Shown here one piece after another: positions 10,440 to 17,270 of a stretch of 64,000 nt of DNA; the stretch's first letter is position 1; every line of letters begins with the position of its first letter. The notes beneath the pieces are model-generated. The model saw nothing but the letters and a program-made list of their open reading frames with translations, searched no databases and had not been told where the DNA came from. The stretch covers positions 1 through 64,000 of the forward strand of contig NZ_JAGXFK010000021.1 of assembly GCF_024637375.1 (NCBI RefSeq), in the 5' to 3' direction. The DNA comes from Sediminimonas sp. (GTDB lineage Bacteria > Pseudomonadota > Alphaproteobacteria > Rhodobacterales > Rhodobacteraceae). The translations under genes were made by a program, and so were the position numbers.

Positions 10440-10808
10440 ATGCGCAACGCGGCACTGGTTCTGGGCGTGATCGGCGGGATCGTCGGCATGCTGGTGGGGT
10501 TTTTCAGCTACGGGTATACCGAAGCGGTAGATCGTTTCGGCGAGATCGAGGGGCTGGCCGAGCAGGTGGCCAATGTCGAGGTGATCCGCGCCGCGAGCTT
10601 CCTGTCGCCGCTTCTGGCCATCGCCGGGGCGGCAATGGCCAAGGTGCGCGCGCTTTGGGGCGGTATCCTGCTGCTGATATCGACGGGCGGCATGTATTAC
10701 GCGTTCGGGTTCAACGTATTCACCATGTTTCCGCTGGGGTTCTGCGGGCTGGCGGGCCTGTTGGCCATCGGGGCCGGCAAACCCGACGAGCCTAAGTCGC
10801 ATTTCTGA
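10440..10808 (+). CDS. Small four-TM membrane protein of unknown function
   Basis: A 122-residue protein with hydrophobic segments at about 4-24, 52-68, 70-88 and 92-110 and a short polar tail ending in KPDEPKSHF. Glycine-rich TM1 (VLGVIGGIVGMLVGFF) and the GGMYYAFGF stretch are notable. I do not recognise a characterised family. An AGGAGG-like ribosome site lies 8 nt before the ATG. It follows the ArsC/Spx-like gene by 42 bp and its 3' end overlaps the end of the convergent DoxX gene by 17 bp. Confidence 0.65.
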   Translation: MRNAALVLGVIGGIVGMLVGFFSYGYTEAVDRFGEIEGLAEQVANVEVIRAASFLSPLLAIAGAAMAKVRALWGGILLLISTGGMYYAFGFNVFTMFPLGFCGLAGLLAIGAGKPDEPKSHF

Positions 10809-11349
10809 ACAGCAGTCGGTCGAGCGACAGCGCGCCGCCGCCCTTGAGCACGATCGTCAGCAGCACGAACACCCACAGCGCGCGCTGATCCATGATCAGG
10901 CTGTCGGGGGCGCGGTCAAACCAGGCGCCCAGTGTTCCGTCGTGTTCGATGCCACCATGGCCGAAAAGATCGGTCAGGCTCTGCACGATGATGAAACCCA
11001 TCATGCCAAACGCGGCCAGACGTGAGAAAAGCCCGATAACGATCAGAAAAGGAAGGATGAATTCTGCCCAGGTTCCTGCCAGAACCACGAAGTGGTGGAA
11101 GATCGACAATTGCGAGGCATCGTACATCACCGCTTCCATCGCGCCGGGAAATATTTGCGCGCAAGCGCCGCTTGAGGGCGAGAATATCCCCATGACACCG
11201 TCGCCGAGCTTGGTCACCGCCGACGCCCAGAAATAGGCAAGCAATACGCCGGCAAAGACGATGCGGGCAAGAAGCGGCAGCGCAAGCGCGTTTTTGTCAA
11301 GATCATGAAATAGTAAAATATGTCGTAAAAGCATATCAGTAATTGCCAT
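10792..11349 (-). CDS. DoxX family membrane protein of the bufferin operon
   Basis: A 185-residue protein with four membrane segments (about 23-43, 83-103, 105-125, 155-172). The segments LPLLARIVFAGVLLAYFWAS and GTWAEFILPFLIVIGLFSRL are characteristic of DoxX/DUF417-like proteins. DoxX genes are frequent last members of DUF2282/DUF692/DUF2063 operons, where their role is unproven; a redox or membrane accessory role is the usual guess. The start overlaps the end of the DUF2063 gene by 14 bp, so translation is tightly coupled. Confidence 0.85.
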   Translation of the reverse strand: MAITDMLLRHILLFHDLDKNALALPLLARIVFAGVLLAYFWASAVTKLGDGVMGIFSPSSGACAQIFPGAMEAVMYDASQLSIFHHFVVLAGTWAEFILPFLIVIGLFSRLAAFGMMGFIIVQSLTDLFGHGGIEHDGTLGAWFDRAPDSLIMDQRALWVFVLLTIVLKGGGALSLDRLLFRNAT

Positions 11350-12103
11350 TCTTCATGTTGAGTGAGGCGATGGCAGCGCCATCGAGTAATAGCCCCAGCG
11401 TGAACGCGGGGTCGAACCCAGACGCCGTGGCGGCAGCCTGGTCATGGGCCTCGGCAAAGGTTGCGCCGCGCGCCAGCGCCTCCACGAACTCGGCGCCGCC
11501 AGCGGGCAGCGGGGTGGCGACAGGGTCGAAATCCGGCCGGGTGATCAACACGTTCTGCGGTGTTGCCGCCGGTTTCGGATTGCTTGGGTCCAGCGCGTAA
11601 GCCCGGATCGCGTGAACCGGCCAGACCGAGCGTACAATCGTTGTCGCCGGGGCCAGGTTCGCGCTCGAGTCCATGAGTGTTTTCAGCGCGATGGCGCGCA
11701 ATGTTCCAGAACAGATCGCGGCGCTGTCGGCGGCGTGATAGGCCCGGCGCATGGCGTGTTCGAGGCGCGCGACATCGCCGAGGTAGCGGATGTGCGCCAG
11801 CGGCTCGAACCCGTCGAGGAAGGCGGGAAAGCCAGCACCATAGAGCATCAGAAGCGGCGAATCCGGCGGGTTTTCCTGCGCGTATGTCCTTGCGACGGTC
11901 GAGAAATTCTGCTCGCCGATCAGGCTGGCCACGGCCGGAAACCCGGTGCGCAGCGCTTCGCGCAGCGACACCGCGACGTTGTTGCGGTAGACCCAGAAAC
12001 GCCGCCCGGCGGGCCGACCATGCCCATCGGACAGCCCCCCCGGCGGCGCCAGGTTCGGCGTCGTGATGGCGCGGTGCAGGGTGGCCTGGTCCGGCGGGGT
12101 CAT
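11336..12103 (-). CDS. bufC: DUF2063 (BufC-type) partner of MNIO enzyme
   Basis: A 255-residue protein. The N-terminal block RFWVYRNNVAVSLREALRTGFPAVASLIG (about 34-62) is the DUF2063/HvfC-like domain that presents the precursor peptide to a DUF692 enzyme; the C-terminal half is a less conserved DUF2063-associated domain. In bufferin systems BufB and BufC act as a heterodimer. The ATG overlaps the stop of the DUF692 gene by 4 bp. Earlier in-frame starts lie inside the DUF692 gene and are rejected. Confidence 0.9.
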   Translation of the reverse strand: MTPPDQATLHRAITTPNLAPPGGLSDGHGRPAGRRFWVYRNNVAVSLREALRTGFPAVASLIGEQNFSTVARTYAQENPPDSPLLMLYGAGFPAFLDGFEPLAHIRYLGDVARLEHAMRRAYHAADSAAICSGTLRAIALKTLMDSSANLAPATTIVRSVWPVHAIRAYALDPSNPKPAATPQNVLITRPDFDPVATPLPAGGAEFVEALARGATFAEAHDQAAATASGFDPAFTLGLLLDGAAIASLNMKNGNY

Positions 12104-12990
12104 GCGGTTTCCCTGTCTGTACCCGGTACGGATCGGGGCGTCGAATGTACGTTTTGCAGTGCCGTTGCGGCGCGCCGGGCCTCGGCGGCCAGAACCGGCC
12201 AGTCGGGCACGTCGGTATCCCATTCGACCAGCACCGGGCGTCGCCCACCGCGCGCAAGGGTGTCGTCGAGCAGCGCCCAGACGGGTTCGACGACCACGCG
12301 GCCGTGGCTGTCGATCAGCAGTGGCGCGTCGTGGTCGTCGTGATCCTGGTCATGGCCGCCAACGTGAATTTCACCCACCAGGTCAAGGGGATACGCGTCG
12401 ATATAGGCGCGCGGCTCGTAGCCCAGGTTGGTGGCCGAGACGAACACGTTGTTGACGTCCAACAGCAGGCCGCAGCCGGTGCGCAGGGCCAGTTCGTGCA
12501 TGAAATCGGGTTCGGCCCAGGTGGACTCGTCGAAGGCCAGGTAGCTGGACGGGTTTTCCAGCAGCATCTGCCGGCCCAGCGTCTGCTGCACATCGTCGAT
12601 ATGGGCGGCGACGCGCGCCAGTGTCGCGTTGGTATAGGGCAGGGGCAGCAGGTCGTTGAGGAACGCGCCCTCGTGCGTGGACCAGGCCAGGTGTTCCGAA
12701 AAGCTGGCCGGTTGCAACCAGTCGCAAAGGTGGCGCAGCCGTGCCAGGTGATCCCGGTCGAGCGGCGCCTCGCCGCCGATGCTCAGCCCCACGCCGTGTA
12801 CCGAGATCGCGAAGCGCCGCGCCAGGTGTTCGAGCTGTGCCAGCGGCCGGCCGCCGTCACCCATGTAGTTCTCGGCGTGGATCTCCAGCCATTCGACGGG
12901 CGCGGGGTCGGCGATGATGTCGCCATAGTGCTGCGGCTTGTAGCCCACGCCGGGGGCGTGCGGCAGGCTGTCATGAGGGGGATGAGGCAT
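12100..12990 (-). CDS. bufB: DUF692 multinuclear iron oxygenase (BufB-type)
   Basis: A 296-residue TIM-barrel enzyme of the DUF692/MNIO family, which modifies cysteines of RiPP precursors using a multinuclear iron centre. Visible conserved ligand-bearing motifs are LEIHAENY (E36, E40), SVHGVGLS (H65), FSEHLAW (E99, H100), LENPSSY (E145, N146), LLLDVNN (D178, N180) and GEIHVGGH (H209, H213). In bufferin operons the enzyme turns the core cysteines into thiooxazole groups, yielding a copper-binding periplasmic peptide. It follows the precursor gene by 75 bp. Methanobactin MbnB is a more distant relative. Confidence 0.92.
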   Translation of the reverse strand: MPHPPHDSLPHAPGVGYKPQHYGDIIADPAPVEWLEIHAENYMGDGGRPLAQLEHLARRFAISVHGVGLSIGGEAPLDRDHLARLRHLCDWLQPASFSEHLAWSTHEGAFLNDLLPLPYTNATLARVAAHIDDVQQTLGRQMLLENPSSYLAFDESTWAEPDFMHELALRTGCGLLLDVNNVFVSATNLGYEPRAYIDAYPLDLVGEIHVGGHDQDHDDHDAPLLIDSHGRVVVEPVWALLDDTLARGGRRPVLVEWDTDVPDWPVLAAEARRAATALQNVHSTPRSVPGTDRETA

Positions 12991-13021
12991 GTCGCGGCCC
13001 TTTTGGTGTCTGTCCGAAGGG

Positions 13022-13052
13022 CGCACAGGCCGAGGCGTTCCCGCCCTGTGCG
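13022..13052 (-). promoter_or_regulatory. Hairpin between bufferin precursor and enzyme genes
   Basis: An 8-bp perfect stem (CGCACAGG / CCTGTGCG) encloses a 15-nt loop that can itself pair GGCG with CGCC. It lies in the 75-bp gap after the precursor stop and has no T tract. Such a structure could partially terminate transcription or stabilise the upstream mRNA so that precursor exceeds enzyme. Confidence 0.4.
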
Positions 13053-13065
13053 TTGTGCGGATCGC

Positions 13066-13368
13066 TCAGGACGGGATGTCGCGCTTGAGCGGTTCCAGCG
13101 CGCCTTCGCGCGGGCTGCCGTCGGCCATGTCGGGCAGGTCGATCTCAAGGCAGGTGCCGGCGTCGACCATCTTCCAAGCGTTGCCCTGAAAGTCGACGGT
13201 CGAGGTGCCCGCGCAGGTGGTGCCGGGGCCGGCGGCGCAGTCGTTCTGGCCCGCCAGCGCGACGCCAAAGCATTTTTCCTTGGCCTGAGCCCGGGCATCT
13301 GTGCCGTGCGCGGCCAGCGCGGTTGCGAAGGCGCCGGCGACGGCGAGGGTGGTCATGTGTTTTGACAT
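13066..13368 (-). CDS. bufA: DUF2282 bufferin-type RiPP precursor
   Basis: A 100-residue precursor with an N-terminal Sec-like signal sequence (about 1-28, ending ARAQ), followed by a core with exactly four cysteines: C33 ([10 protein letters not shown]), C44 (QNDCAAGPG), C52 (TTCAGTS) and C73 (DAGTC). This spacing is the hallmark of DUF2282 bufferins, in which some of these cysteines are modified by the MNIO enzyme. Unusually for a RiPP, the signal sequence sends the product to the periplasm, where related peptides bind copper. The start follows GGGAGAGACC. A C-terminal charged extension after C73 is about 27 residues. Confidence 0.88.
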
Positions 13369-13558
13369 TTCGGTCTCTCCCATTCGTTTCGAGGTCGGAT
13401 CGCGTCGTGCGATGGGAAAGTCGTAGCGAGCGGCAGGCGTCACGCGCCAATCACGTCGCCGTGGCATCACGAAATGTTCAGTTGTGGTGAGATGATCGTG
13501 AGACGGGGCGCAAAGCCGGGCGTGTGGGCCGCGGGTGCGTCACCAGCATCCGCGCGTC

Positions 13559-14317
13559 TCATCCGGCGGCCTTCTCGGTGACCGCGACGATTGCGCGTTC
13601 GACCAGCGCCAGGCAGTCGGGCGTGGAAAAGCGATGATCGGCGCCCTTGACCAGCGTCAGGTGGATATCCGGGCTGTCGGCGTGATCCAGCAGGCGCAGC
13701 GCCACGTCGCGGGGCACGTCGGCGTCCGCCGTGCCCTGCAACAGCCGCACCGGGAACGGCAGGCCCAGCGGCGCGCGCAGCACCAGGTTTTCGCGCCCGT
13801 CCTCGATCAGCCGCCGCGTGATGACATAGGGCGCGTCGTCATACTCCGATGGTTGTTCCAGCCGCCCCTGAGCGGTGATTGCCGCGCGCTGGTCGGCATC
13901 GAATTCGGCCCACATGCCGTCTTCGGTGAAATCGGGCGCGGCGGCGATGCCCACCATGCCGGCGACGCGCGCGGGCATCGCGCGCGCCACCAGAGCCGCG
14001 ATCCAGCCGCCCATGGACGAGCCCACCAGTATCTGCGGACCCTCGGTCAGCGCGTCGATGGCGGCGATGGCATCCGCCGCCCAGTCGCCGATGCAGCCGT
14101 CCTCGAACGCGCCAGAGGATTGACCATGCCCGGAGTAGTCAAAGCGCAGGAAGGCGCGGCCATTTCGTTGTGCCCAGTCCTGAAGGTAAAGCGCCTTGGT
14201 GCCTTCCATGTCGGATTTGAACCCGCCCAGAAACACCACACCGGGCCCCGTGCCGGCAAGGCGGTGATGGGCGATGCGCCGGCCCGCCGGCGTTTGCAGG
14301 TATTGTGGCTCTTGCAT
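13559..14317 (-). CDS. Alpha/beta hydrolase (ABHD10-like serine esterase)
   Basis: A 252-residue hydrolase with the nucleophile elbow GSSMGG at 99-104 (S101) and a likely catalytic H228 in KGADHRFS. The segment RAFLRFDYSGHGQSSGAFEDGCIGDW resembles the ABHD10/palmitoyl-thioesterase-like branch. There is no signal peptide. It is divergent from thrS with a 192-bp shared upstream region. A much longer open frame reads through from the antisense of thrS but only this part has protein-like content. Confidence 0.82.
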   Translation of the reverse strand: MQEPQYLQTPAGRRIAHHRLAGTGPGVVFLGGFKSDMEGTKALYLQDWAQRNGRAFLRFDYSGHGQSSGAFEDGCIGDWAADAIAAIDALTEGPQILVGSSMGGWIAALVARAMPARVAGMVGIAAAPDFTEDGMWAEFDADQRAAITAQGRLEQPSEYDDAPYVITRRLIEDGRENLVLRAPLGLPFPVRLLQGTADADVPRDVALRLLDHADSPDIHLTLVKGADHRFSTPDCLALVERAIVAVTEKAAG

Positions 14318-14418
14318 TCGGTGCCTCCTCCGTGCGCGGTATTGCGGCGGCGATCCTGCCCGCCCGGCGCGCGGGGGGCAAGGGGTGGCCCGGCCCCACC
14401 ATCGCTGCGGCGGATGGC

Positions 14419-14447
14419 TTGACACCCCGCGGCGGCGGGGCCAAAAG
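14419..14447 (+). promoter_or_regulatory. Candidate thrS promoter
   Basis: A consensus TTGACA at 14419-14424 is followed after 17 bp by CAAAAG (weak -10). The spacer is almost entirely a CCCCGC/GCGGGG palindrome. The start of thrS is about 60 bp further on. Confidence 0.4.
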
Positions 14448-14509
14448 GGCGCGAACCATACCCGCAACCGGGCGTTCCGTGGGCGCCAAACCGACGAGGA
14501 GCCAGCGCA

Positions 14510-16456
14510 ATGGCACAAGTTTCTCTCACCTTCCCCGATGGCAATCAACGATCCTTCCCCGCCGGCGTCACCGCCGCCGAGGTTGCCTCCGATATCTCCA
14601 GATCGCTGGGCAAGAAGGCGATCAGCGCGCAGCTCGACGGCCGCCACTGGGATCTGCAATGGCCCATCGACCACGACGCGGCCATCGCCATCAACACCAT
14701 GGCCGACCGCGCCCCTGCGCTGGAGCTTGTCCGCCACGACCTGGCCCACATCATGGCCCGCGCGGTGCAGGAAATGTGGCCCGATGTGCAGGTGACCATC
14801 GGCCCGGTGATCGAAAACGGCTGGTACTATGATTTCGATCGCAGGGAACCCTTCACCCCCGAGGACCTGGGCGCCATCGAGAAGCGCATGCGCGAGATCA
14901 TCGCCGCGCGTGACCCGGTCACCACCGAGGTCTGGTCGCGCGAGCGTGCCATCGCGCATTACCAATCGACCGGTGAGCCCTACAAGGTGGAACTGGTCGA
15001 GGCGATCCCCGAGGACCAGGCCCTGCGCATGTACTGGCACGGCCCCTGGCAAGACCTGTGCCGCGGCCCGCATTTGCAGCACACCGGCCAGGTGCCCGCC
15101 GACGCCTTCAAGCTGATGAGCGTCGCCGGCGCCTATTGGCGCGGCGATTCCAGCCGCGCGATGCTGCAACGCATCTACGGCGTTGCCTTCCTCAACCGCA
15201 ATGACCTCAAGGCGCATCTGACGATGCTGGAAGAGGCCGCCAAGCGCGACCACCGCAAGCTGGGCCGCGAGATGGACCTGTTTCACATGCAGGAGGAAGC
15301 CCCGGGTCAGATATTCTGGCATCCGAACGGCTGGAGCATCTACACCACGTTGCAGGATTACATGCGCCGCCAGCAGAACAAGGGCGGCTATGTCGAGGTC
15401 AACACCCCGCAGGTGGTGGACCGCAAGCTGTGGGAGGCCTCGGGCCACTGGGAAAAATACCAGGACCACATGTTCATCGTCGAGGTCGATGAGGAGCACG
15501 CGCGCGAGAAATCCATCAACGCGCTCAAGCCGATGAACTGCCCGTGCCACGTTCAGATATTCAACCAGGGGATCAAGAGCTACCGCGACCTGCCGCTGCG
15601 CATGGCCGAGTTCGGATCGTGCAACCGCTACGAGCCGTCGGGCGCGCTGCACGGCATCATGCGGGTGCGCGGGTTCACCCAGGACGATGCGCACATCTTC
15701 TGCACCGAGGACCAGATCGCGCAAGAGACCGAGCGTTTCATCGACTTTCTGTCGCGCATCTACAGCGATCTCGGGTTTGAAAAGTTCACCGTCAAGTTTT
15801 CCGACCGGCCCGAGACCCGCGCCGGGTCGGACGAGGTGTGGGACAAGTCCGAGGCCGCCCTCAAGCAAGCGACCGAGGCGGCCGGCTACGCCTATGACGA
15901 GAACCCCGGCGAGGGCGCGTTTTATGGTCCCAAGCTGGAGTTCGTGCTGACCGATGCCATCGGGCGCGACTGGCAATGCGGCACGCTTCAGGTCGATTTC
16001 GTCCTGCCCGAACGGCTGGATGCCAGCTATATCGGCGCCGATGGCGACAAGCACCGCCCCGTGATGCTGCACCGCGCGGTGCTGGGCAGTTTCGAGCGAT
16101 TCATCGGCATCCTGATCGAAAGCCACGCCGGCAAGCTGCCGTTCTGGCTGGCGCCGCGGCAGGTGGTGGTGGCCTCGATCGTGTCGGACGCCGACGACTA
16201 TTGCCGCGAGGTGGCCGCAGCGTTGCAAGCCCGCGGCGTGCGCGCCGAAACCGACCTGCGCAACGAGAAGATCAACTACAAGGTGCGCGAACATTCGGTG
16301 GCCAAGGTGCCGGTGATCCTGGCCTGCGGCGCGCGCGAGGTCGAAGACCGCAGTGTGACCGTCCGTCGCCTGGGCGAGAAGCAGACGCAGACCCGCACTC
16401 TGGACGAGATTACCACCGAGCTGGGCACCGAGGCCAAGCCGCCCGACATGGCCTGA
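14510..16456 (+). CDS. thrS: Threonyl-tRNA synthetase
   Basis: A 648-residue class II synthetase that charges tRNA-Thr. Order of domains: TGS (about 1-63), the N2 editing domain with HDLAH (H76, H80) and the CRGPHLQH block, then the catalytic core with motif 2 in [21 protein letters not shown] and zinc ligands starting at [10 protein letters not shown], and the C-terminal HGTP anticodon-binding domain (about 545-640). Length and every domain are normal. The editing domain removes mischarged serine. ATG preceded by GAGGAG. Confidence 0.98.
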
Positions 16457-16541
16457 GCGCCGCGTCGCGCACCGGGCGCCTTGCCGCCGGGCACCATAGG
16501 CGCCACACTTGTGTCGATGGCGACGCGAAAAGGGGCAAGCG

Positions 16542-17270
16542 ATGGCTGAAGCGGTGGTTTTCCTGCCGGGCATGATGTGCGACGCACGGCTCTACGCCCC
16601 GCAACTCGCCGATCTGAGCCGCGATCACGCGGTCACGGTAGCGCCGATCACGCAGGGCGAGCGGGTCGAGGAAATCGCCTCGGGGTTGCTCGACGTGCTG
16701 CCGGGGCGGTTCGCGCTGGCCGGGCTGTCGATGGGGGGCATCGTGGCGATGGAACTGCTGCGCCGCGCGCCGGATCGGATCACGCGGCTGGCGCTGATGG
16801 ACACCAACGCGCTGGCCGAGACGCCGCAAAGCGCCGCGCATTACGAGCCGCCGATCATCGCCGCGCGCGCCGGCCGGGTGGACGAGGCGGTCATGCAGAT
16901 GGTGCGCCCCGAGGTGCTGGCGCCGGGACCGGGGCGAATGCAGGTGCTGGCGCTGGTGCGGCAGATGGCGGCCGACCTGGGCGCCGAGGTGTTCGTGCGC
17001 CAGGCGCGTGCCTTGCAGCGCCGCCGCGACTACCAGGCGGAGCTGCGCCGCTGCAAGGTGCCGACGCTGGTGCTGTGCGGCGCGCATGACGCGCTGACCC
17101 CGGTCAAGCGCCACCGTTTCATGGCCGAGCTGATCGGGCATGCGCGTCTCGACATCCTCGACGACGCCGGCCACCTGCCCACGATCGAGGCGCCCGAGGC
17201 AACGACAAGCGCGTTGCGCGACTGGCTGGAAATGCCGGCTCCGGGGGGCGCGGCGGAGGGCCGTCCATGA
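16542..17270 (+). CDS. Alpha/beta fold hydrolase
   Basis: A 242-residue hydrolase with oxyanion region FLPGMMCDARLY (7-18), nucleophile elbow GLSMGG at 61-66 (S63), acid in CGAHDALTP and catalytic histidine in DDAGHLPTIEAPE near the C-terminus. It resembles small-molecule esterases of the MenH/BioH-like group, but the substrate is unknown. The chosen ATG begins the conserved strand; an upstream start adds 11 unrelated residues. It follows thrS by 85 bp and overlaps the next gene by 4 bp. Confidence 0.8.
   Translation: MAEAVVFLPGMMCDARLYAPQLADLSRDHAVTVAPITQGERVEEIASGLLDVLPGRFALAGLSMGGIVAMELLRRAPDRITRLALMDTNALAETPQSAAHYEPPIIAARAGRVDEAVMQMVRPEVLAPGPGRMQVLALVRQMAADLGAEVFVRQARALQRRRDYQAELRRCKVPTLVLCGAHDALTPVKRHRFMAELIGHARLDILDDAGHLPTIEAPEATTSALRDWLEMPAPGGAAEGRP

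Follow-up and report, generated by a model that had tools for sequence, protein, structure and literature searches.

A Buf1-type bufferin operon in Sediminimonas and conserved CenR-like boxes upstream of its precursor gene

Introduction

Bufferins are copper-binding ribosomally synthesized and post-translationally modified peptides (RiPPs). The core of a Buf1 bufferin cluster consists of four genes, coding for the precursor, an MNIO enzyme, a DUF2063 protein and a DoxX protein; in the same account, the central cysteines of the precursor are modified, the outer pair forms a disulfide, and the peptides are placed in the periplasm (PMC12452194). In related clusters, 5-thiooxazoles formed with the loss of four hydrogens per cysteine have been assigned (PMC13097082). 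Here we analyze an operon of this type, bufA-bufB-bufC-doxX, in a stretch of 64,000 nucleotides from Sediminimonas sp. of the Rhodobacteraceae (contig NZ_JAGXFK010000021.1, positions 1 to 64,000; the whole stretch is called the window below), and discuss how the boxes found before bufA may bring it under the control of the response regulator CenR.

Among the described systems, the Caulobacter operon CC3254-CC3257 is alike in gene content, gene order, a precursor with four cysteines, an MNIO enzyme with a DUF2063 protein, and DoxX. It differs in its regulation: sigF and nrsF lie beside the Caulobacter operon and the promoter has the form GTAACC-N16-CGAA, whereas no NrsF gene was found in the genome of the window (assembly 87.9% complete, the search being aimed at NrsF and not at the sigma gene) and CenR-like boxes precede bufA. 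The oxazolin and fontiphorin (EGKCG) captophorin clusters likewise combine an MNIO enzyme with a DUF2063 partner, and Cys-derived 5-thiooxazoles are reported there. Their precursors carry EGKCG repeats, however, and with the HvfB model BufB of the window scores 222 bits, under the cut-off of 360. The CenK-CenR regulon of Rhodobacter sphaeroides resembles the present locus in its TGA-N8-TGA boxes, and its targets are mostly envelope and periplasmic proteins (PMC9275681).

The Bufferin Operon

The four genes lie on the minus strand in the order bufA, bufB, bufC, doxX, from 13368 to 10792 (Table 1). A gap of 75 bp separates bufA from bufB, and the remaining genes overlap, bufB with bufC by 4 bp (12103-12100) and bufC with doxX by 14 bp (11349-11336). 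The initial annotation, which had proposed a bufferin-type operon with these four genes and with overlaps of 4 and 14 bp among the last three, is borne out on both counts, and the family profiles fit. BufB scores 367 bits against the NCBIfam model MNIO_BufB (NF050167), above the cut-off of 310. BufA has no NCBIfam match, and BufC reaches 41 bits with the HvfC model of NCBIfam, far under its cut-off of 142. DoxX is under the cut-off of 80 with HvfX (25 bits) and also under that of PF07681, yet relatives of this weakly scoring protein are present in 103 of the 115 loci that we compared. In Buf1 clusters a DoxX gene is frequent but not obligatory.

These loci were picked for bufB and comprise 34 relatives from a genome search, 80 named loci, and the window. 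The named set holds the best 80 of 564 candidates and consists mostly of roseobacters, such as Marinovum, Ruegeria, Roseovarius and Shimia. One locus of the collection (L183) is apparently from the same genome as another (L034), and further overlaps between the two locus sets are possible. Relatives of bufA were found in 114 and of bufC in 113 of the 115 loci, and 35 of the 61 genomes searched, the window's own genome counted, have a BufB match. At these frequencies of the enzyme and its neighbors, the co-occurrence of the genes is not due to chance. The assembly to which the window belongs (2.97 Mb in 98 contigs) has one MNIO gene and one DUF2282 gene, and a second copy of either was not found in its 87.9% complete sequence.

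The precursor, as initially annotated, has an export signal (of the AxA type, by reading of the sequence) and exactly four cysteines, at residues 33, 44, 52 and 73. The resulting 11-8-21 spacing is shared by 105 of 112 precursors, that of the window included; of the seven with another spacing, three differ just by one additional cysteine nearer the N-terminus. When 47 precursors are aligned, all four cysteines are invariant, as is A27 of the putative cleavage site, and A25 is at least 90% conserved. BufB keeps, by alignment, all nine iron ligands of TglH (H65, H100, E145, D178, N181, H209, D227, H229 and E256), the residues reported to bind iron in that enzyme (PMC10880893). Given the gene content and order, the family profiles, the spacing of the four cysteines and the conserved metal ligands, the four genes are, as judged from sequence, a complete and ordinary core Buf1 operon, and a further member of a known family.

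From the family literature, we infer how BufA may be modified, exported and used in copper binding. BufA would be made with a Sec signal peptide. Before export, the multi-iron oxidase BufB and its partner BufC would oxidize Cys44 and Cys52 in the cytoplasm to thiooxazoles, each with the loss of four hydrogens. The peptide would then be exported, a disulfide would form between Cys33 and Cys73, and the thiooxazoles would bind excess copper in the periplasm, with DoxX as a membrane accessory of uncertain role. The peptide had been annotated as secreted; the export signal is there by reading, but a location outside the cell does not agree with the literature, which puts bufferins in the periplasm. 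A different modification, or service to a metal other than copper, appears quite unlikely to us: BufB is above the cut-off of the bufferin maturase profile and the four-cysteine architecture is the one described for Buf1, although Caulobacter DUF2282 operons are reported to respond to chromium and cadmium through sigmaF, a related operon of Legionella to gold and copper, and the residues around the cysteines to vary within the DUF2282 group.

The charged tail of 27 residues that follows the last cysteine had been taken as a peculiarity of this copy. The tail is present, but tails of 22-34 residues occur throughout the clade: in 79 named relatives the median is 27, and exactly 27 residues are found in 46. 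The sequence of each of the 79 closes with R[DN][LIV]P, followed by no more than three residues, and this motif is found in 22 of 24 relatives from the window's family and in none of 8 from other families. The tail is thus ruled out as a distinctive feature, both it and the R[DN][LIV]P ending being common to the clade. One precursor elsewhere (L044:4200-4916) has a far longer C-terminal extension beyond the usual tail.

Conserved Boxes Upstream of bufA

The search started from repeated CGTGA words in bufA upstreams. In relatives, the bufA promoters have a double box in common, CTGACGC-N3-CGTGAT-N-CACGGC-N2-CGTGA; the consensus, CTGACGC-N3-CGTGAT-N-CACGGCCCCGTGAATGG, was derived from 16 promoters, that of the window and 15 chosen from the named set. 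The sites of CenR in R. sphaeroides, located by chromatin immunoprecipitation sequencing (ChIP-seq), are described as TGA-N8-TGA and lie mostly just 5' of the -35 element in activated promoters (PMC9275681). A matrix was built from 31 published R. sphaeroides sites and used to score the 200 bp 5' of bufA. Three loci were left out of the upstream counts, one where bufA was not found (L066), one where its start was not found (L062), and one where the start is beyond the open frame (L193). The 112 upstreams kept are 8 with an NrsF gene nearby and 104 without, the latter reduced to 85 by dereplication. Since dereplication removes relatedness only partly, the counts do not represent independent events.

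The matrix separates bufA upstreams from controls. Of the 104 upstreams without NrsF nearby, 81 score at least 10 bits and 59 at least 12 bits, compared with 102 and 22 of 2080 dinucleotide shuffles. Control upstreams of other genes reach 10 bits in 7/88 (thrS), 4/81 (arsC), 9/67 (y122), 6/104 (bufB), 3/98 (doxX) and 7/74 (abh) cases. The opposite strand also scores high (75/104), because the consensus is nearly palindromic. The motif is specific in its spacing. In the 85 dereplicated upstreams, TGA-N8-TGA is present in 48 and TGA-N12-TGA in 54, and other spacings from 0 to 19 in 1-11. CACG-N4-CGTGA is found in 54 of the 104 upstreams, with other spacings from 0 to 11 in 0-2. A TGG follows the box in 42 upstreams without NrsF, and exactly 23 bp past it a CTA/TTA-type element is found in 23 of them, that of the window included.

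In the window, TGA-N8-TGA occurs at -112 and -85 relative to bufA, and CACG-N4-CGTGA at -96. At least two such TGA repeats are seen in 0.9%, and the CACG core in 0.35%, of 2000 shuffles. The repeat at -112 aligns with the conserved TGACGC-N3-CGTGA of relatives, and the core at -96 is common to the bufA upstream and the cenR promoter of the same genome.

The thrS gene was found in 94 of the 115 loci and has the same direction as buf in 93, the window being the sole exception. Comparison with a genome of the same genus by blastn indicates that 13578-16457, containing a hydrolase gene and thrS, is inverted, with breakpoints in 13490-13578 and 16457-16542. The inverted block (13491-16541) may be a real inversion or an assembly error. 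About 120 bp 5' of bufA are kept with the operon at the inversion, which suggests that the buf operon has a promoter of its own. Scans for sigma-70 promoters and terminators gave nothing at the bufA promoter; they returned one promoter-like site within doxX and no terminator.

Table 1. Coordinates of the operon genes and of putative sequence elements in the window
Feature	Position	Strand	Basis
bufA, Buf1 (DUF2282) bufferin precursor, 100 amino acids	13066..13368	-	Pfam PF10048, 83.2 bits, cut-off 22.4, E=1.3e-23
bufB, MNIO (DUF692) bufferin maturase, 296 amino acids	12100..12990	-	PF05114, E=4.4e-102
bufC, DUF2063 partner protein, 255 amino acids	11336..12103	-	Pfam PF09836, E=1.8e-22, 79.8 bits, cut-off 27.2
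doxX, DoxX-like membrane protein, 185 amino acids	10792..11349	-	PF07681, 20.9 bits, under cut-off 23.6
Residues 1-27 of BufA, likely a Sec signal peptide cleaved after A25-x-A27	13288..13368	-	Sequence reading
Upstream CenR-like direct repeat TGA-N8-TGA, begins 112 bp before bufA	13466..13480	-	8.2 bits, R. sphaeroides CenR matrix
Second CenR-like box, core CACG-N4-CGTGA	13450..13464	-	5.8 bits on the matrix
Third TGA-N8-TGA repeat, overlaps the putative -35 region	13439..13453	-	7.0 bits
Putative -10-like element TACGAC within GCTACGACTTT	13420..13425	-	Alignment, spacing from TGG

Promoters With an Adjacent Sigma Factor

An NrsF gene is near buf in 8 of the 115 loci. Six belong to the window's family (L046, L054-L057, and L185, the last assigned to it by name) and two to other families (L060 and L065). 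The sigma gene of L046, whose product matches Sigma70 regions 2 and 4, has a related open reading frame in the same 8 loci and in none of the 107 others. The pattern GTAAC-N17-CGAA, which is the Caulobacter sigmaF promoter GTAACC-N16-CGAA with any sixth base (PMC3511200), is present in 6 of the 8, the exceptions being L056 and L065. Among the 104 upstreams without NrsF nearby, only L064 (genome G046) has the pattern, and its NrsF gene is on another contig; GTAAC by itself occurs within -130 to -40 in 3 of the 104. In the window, GTAAC is missing from the 200 bp ahead of bufA, and GTAAC-N17-CGAA likewise.

In the six loci of the window's family, GTAAC is at -76 to -87, and the top CenR-like site in the preceding 40 bp starts 19-20 bp before it, with scores from 6.1 to 12.5. 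No CenR-like box was found in this position in L060 and L065, where the best scores are 0.4 and -1.1. Within the family, both promoter designs, with and without the sigmaF-type core, thus seem to share a CenR-like box near the -35.

These loci raise the possibility that the operon of the window is driven, as in Caulobacter, by an unlinked extracytoplasmic function (ECF) sigma factor of the sigmaF type. The linkage of NrsF and a related sigma gene to buf, mostly with the matching promoter, is in its favor, and L064, with NrsF on a contig other than that of the promoter, indicates that an unlinked sigmaF-NrsF pair does occur. In the genome of the window, however, NrsF was not found (88% complete, the sigma gene itself not searched for), GTAAC is absent before bufA, and the element is rare in upstreams lacking NrsF nearby. 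We therefore regard control by an unlinked sigma factor as highly unlikely. The initial annotation had called the regulation open, as no sigma factor or metal regulator gene is adjacent. This question has narrowed, since CenR-type boxes conserved across the family are present in the promoter.

CenR as a Candidate Regulator

A pattern made from the repeated words, CGTGA-N3/4-ACG-N4-YGTGA, has 40 matches in the 61 genomes, against 8 for a reversed control pattern. By coordinates, 9 of the 40 are 5' of bufA. Of the remaining 31, 15 were inspected, and 11 of these are inside a called reading frame. The four outside are before a cenR-like gene, before a DsbD-like gene, about 180 bp before another gene, and where no gene is called. 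The gene at 180 bp we take to code for a RegB-type kinase. In the genome of the window, the single match to the box pattern is the bufA upstream itself. Allowing up to two mismatches, a close variant of the pattern does not exceed chance in the window (2 matches vs. 2.9 expected). The CACG-N4-CGTGA core alone is not specific: it gives 38 matches in the genome, some of them a single palindromic site scored once per strand, compared with 18 for the control.

A match in genome G007 lies 74 bp before a response-regulator gene. The product has a receiver domain and an OmpR-type DNA-binding domain, with aspartates at 11-13, 51 and 56 (counted by eye), a pattern as described for R. sphaeroides CenR (PMC9275681). 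In the genome of the window, one gene shares 90% identity with the cenR-like P0001, and the box before cenR there is ACACGACAGCGTGAA at -86. As a positive control, 16 of 23 cenR-like loci were read. An ACAC- or TCAC-type box is found between -83 and -92 in 15 of these; in the remaining one, whose start is doubtful, it is at -110. The box is not the top-scoring site in 4 of the 16 upstreams (L113, L121, L122 and L129), and the top score is at least 10 bits in 3, with a median of 9.2. The modest scores of the cenR-like upstreams indicate that likely real targets in the clade can score modestly. A CenR-like site in another genome of the genus (L100:2001-2021, genome G002) precedes a gene for a DsbD_N/DsbD_TM protein; a "dsbC" disulphide bond corrector gene is listed among the R. 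sphaeroides CenR targets in PMC9275681.

From the conservation of the motif, we infer that CenR may control bufA. Several observations weigh against our explanation of the locus as a whole, and we collect them here. The top matrix score of the window, 9.3 bits, is reached by 10.8% of shuffles and comes from a site at -133 that is not part of the conserved box, while the conserved boxes score just 8.2 and 5.8 bits and are separated by one additional base, which is also present in a same-genus relative. All three box forms are missing in 16 of the 104 upstreams, 11 of them from the window's family or the named set. The regulator of G007 is a putative CenR, classed by its domains and aspartate positions against the description of the R. 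sphaeroides protein (RSP_0847). Table 1 of PMC9275681 names no bufferin gene, although unnamed periplasmic proteins are among its entries and the presence of buf in R. sphaeroides was not determined. No copper-responsive element was identified. The structure model of BufA (mean predicted local distance difference test, pLDDT, of 56) is too poor to judge the disulfide. Other OmpR-type regulators, finally, may bind similar repeats. The case for CenR boxes in the window itself comes mainly from homology with relatives.

The last of these objections leads to a rival explanation, that the boxes are read not by CenR but by another OmpR-family response regulator or by one of unrelated type, such as a two-component system that senses copper. 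OmpR-family regulators often recognize short direct repeats (PMC9275681), and the literature connects bufferins with copper stress. In Brucella, moreover, CenR and the response regulator EssR are reported to control a shared set of genes. On the other hand, the matrix that sets bufA upstreams apart from controls is based on ChIP-seq of CenR in a different species, and the same type of box is found in the cenR-like promoters of relatives. We consider a regulator other than CenR rather doubtful, although less so than the other alternatives discussed above.

Neighboring Genes and Variant Loci

A gene on the plus strand (10440-10808) codes for a small protein without a Pfam match. It is convergent to doxX, with a 17-bp overlap at the end of that gene, and related genes are present in 69 of the 115 loci. 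Two loci have two bufA copies ahead of a single bufB (L041:4151-4907 and L063:5881-6813).

A paper on Acinetobacter sigma factors was searched for bufferin terms, and none were present. DUF692 is mentioned twice in PMC11595833.

Conclusion

Our explanation of the locus, in which we have good confidence, is that it is a canonical Buf1 bufferin operon for a copper-binding thiooxazole peptide, most likely with a promoter of its own that is activated by CenR. The operon would be transcribed from a housekeeping-type promoter, with CenR activating it through the tandem boxes just upstream. CenR, of the envelope-stress system CenK-CenR, would act here in place of the sigmaF-NrsF pair of Caulobacter. 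A wider proposal, to which we give even chances, is that the bufferin operon of the Rhodobacteraceae belongs to the CenK-CenR regulon, the boxes being basal and the lineages differing only in the core promoter, which would be of the sigmaF type where sigma-nrsF is adjacent and of the housekeeping type otherwise. The CenR-bufferin connection appears to be new, as no paper linking the two was found in the literature searched.

The operon itself is one of thousands known. What the analysis adds is a specific proposal, open to test, of how bufferin operons are switched on where no sigma factor is adjacent, and lineages with and without the sigma-nrsF pair beside the operon provide a natural comparison. 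The proposal would connect RiPPs that bind copper with an essential regulator of the cell envelope, and this in a major marine clade. If its wider form is true, copper-chelating RiPPs would be part of a general envelope-stress response and not of a dedicated metal response only.

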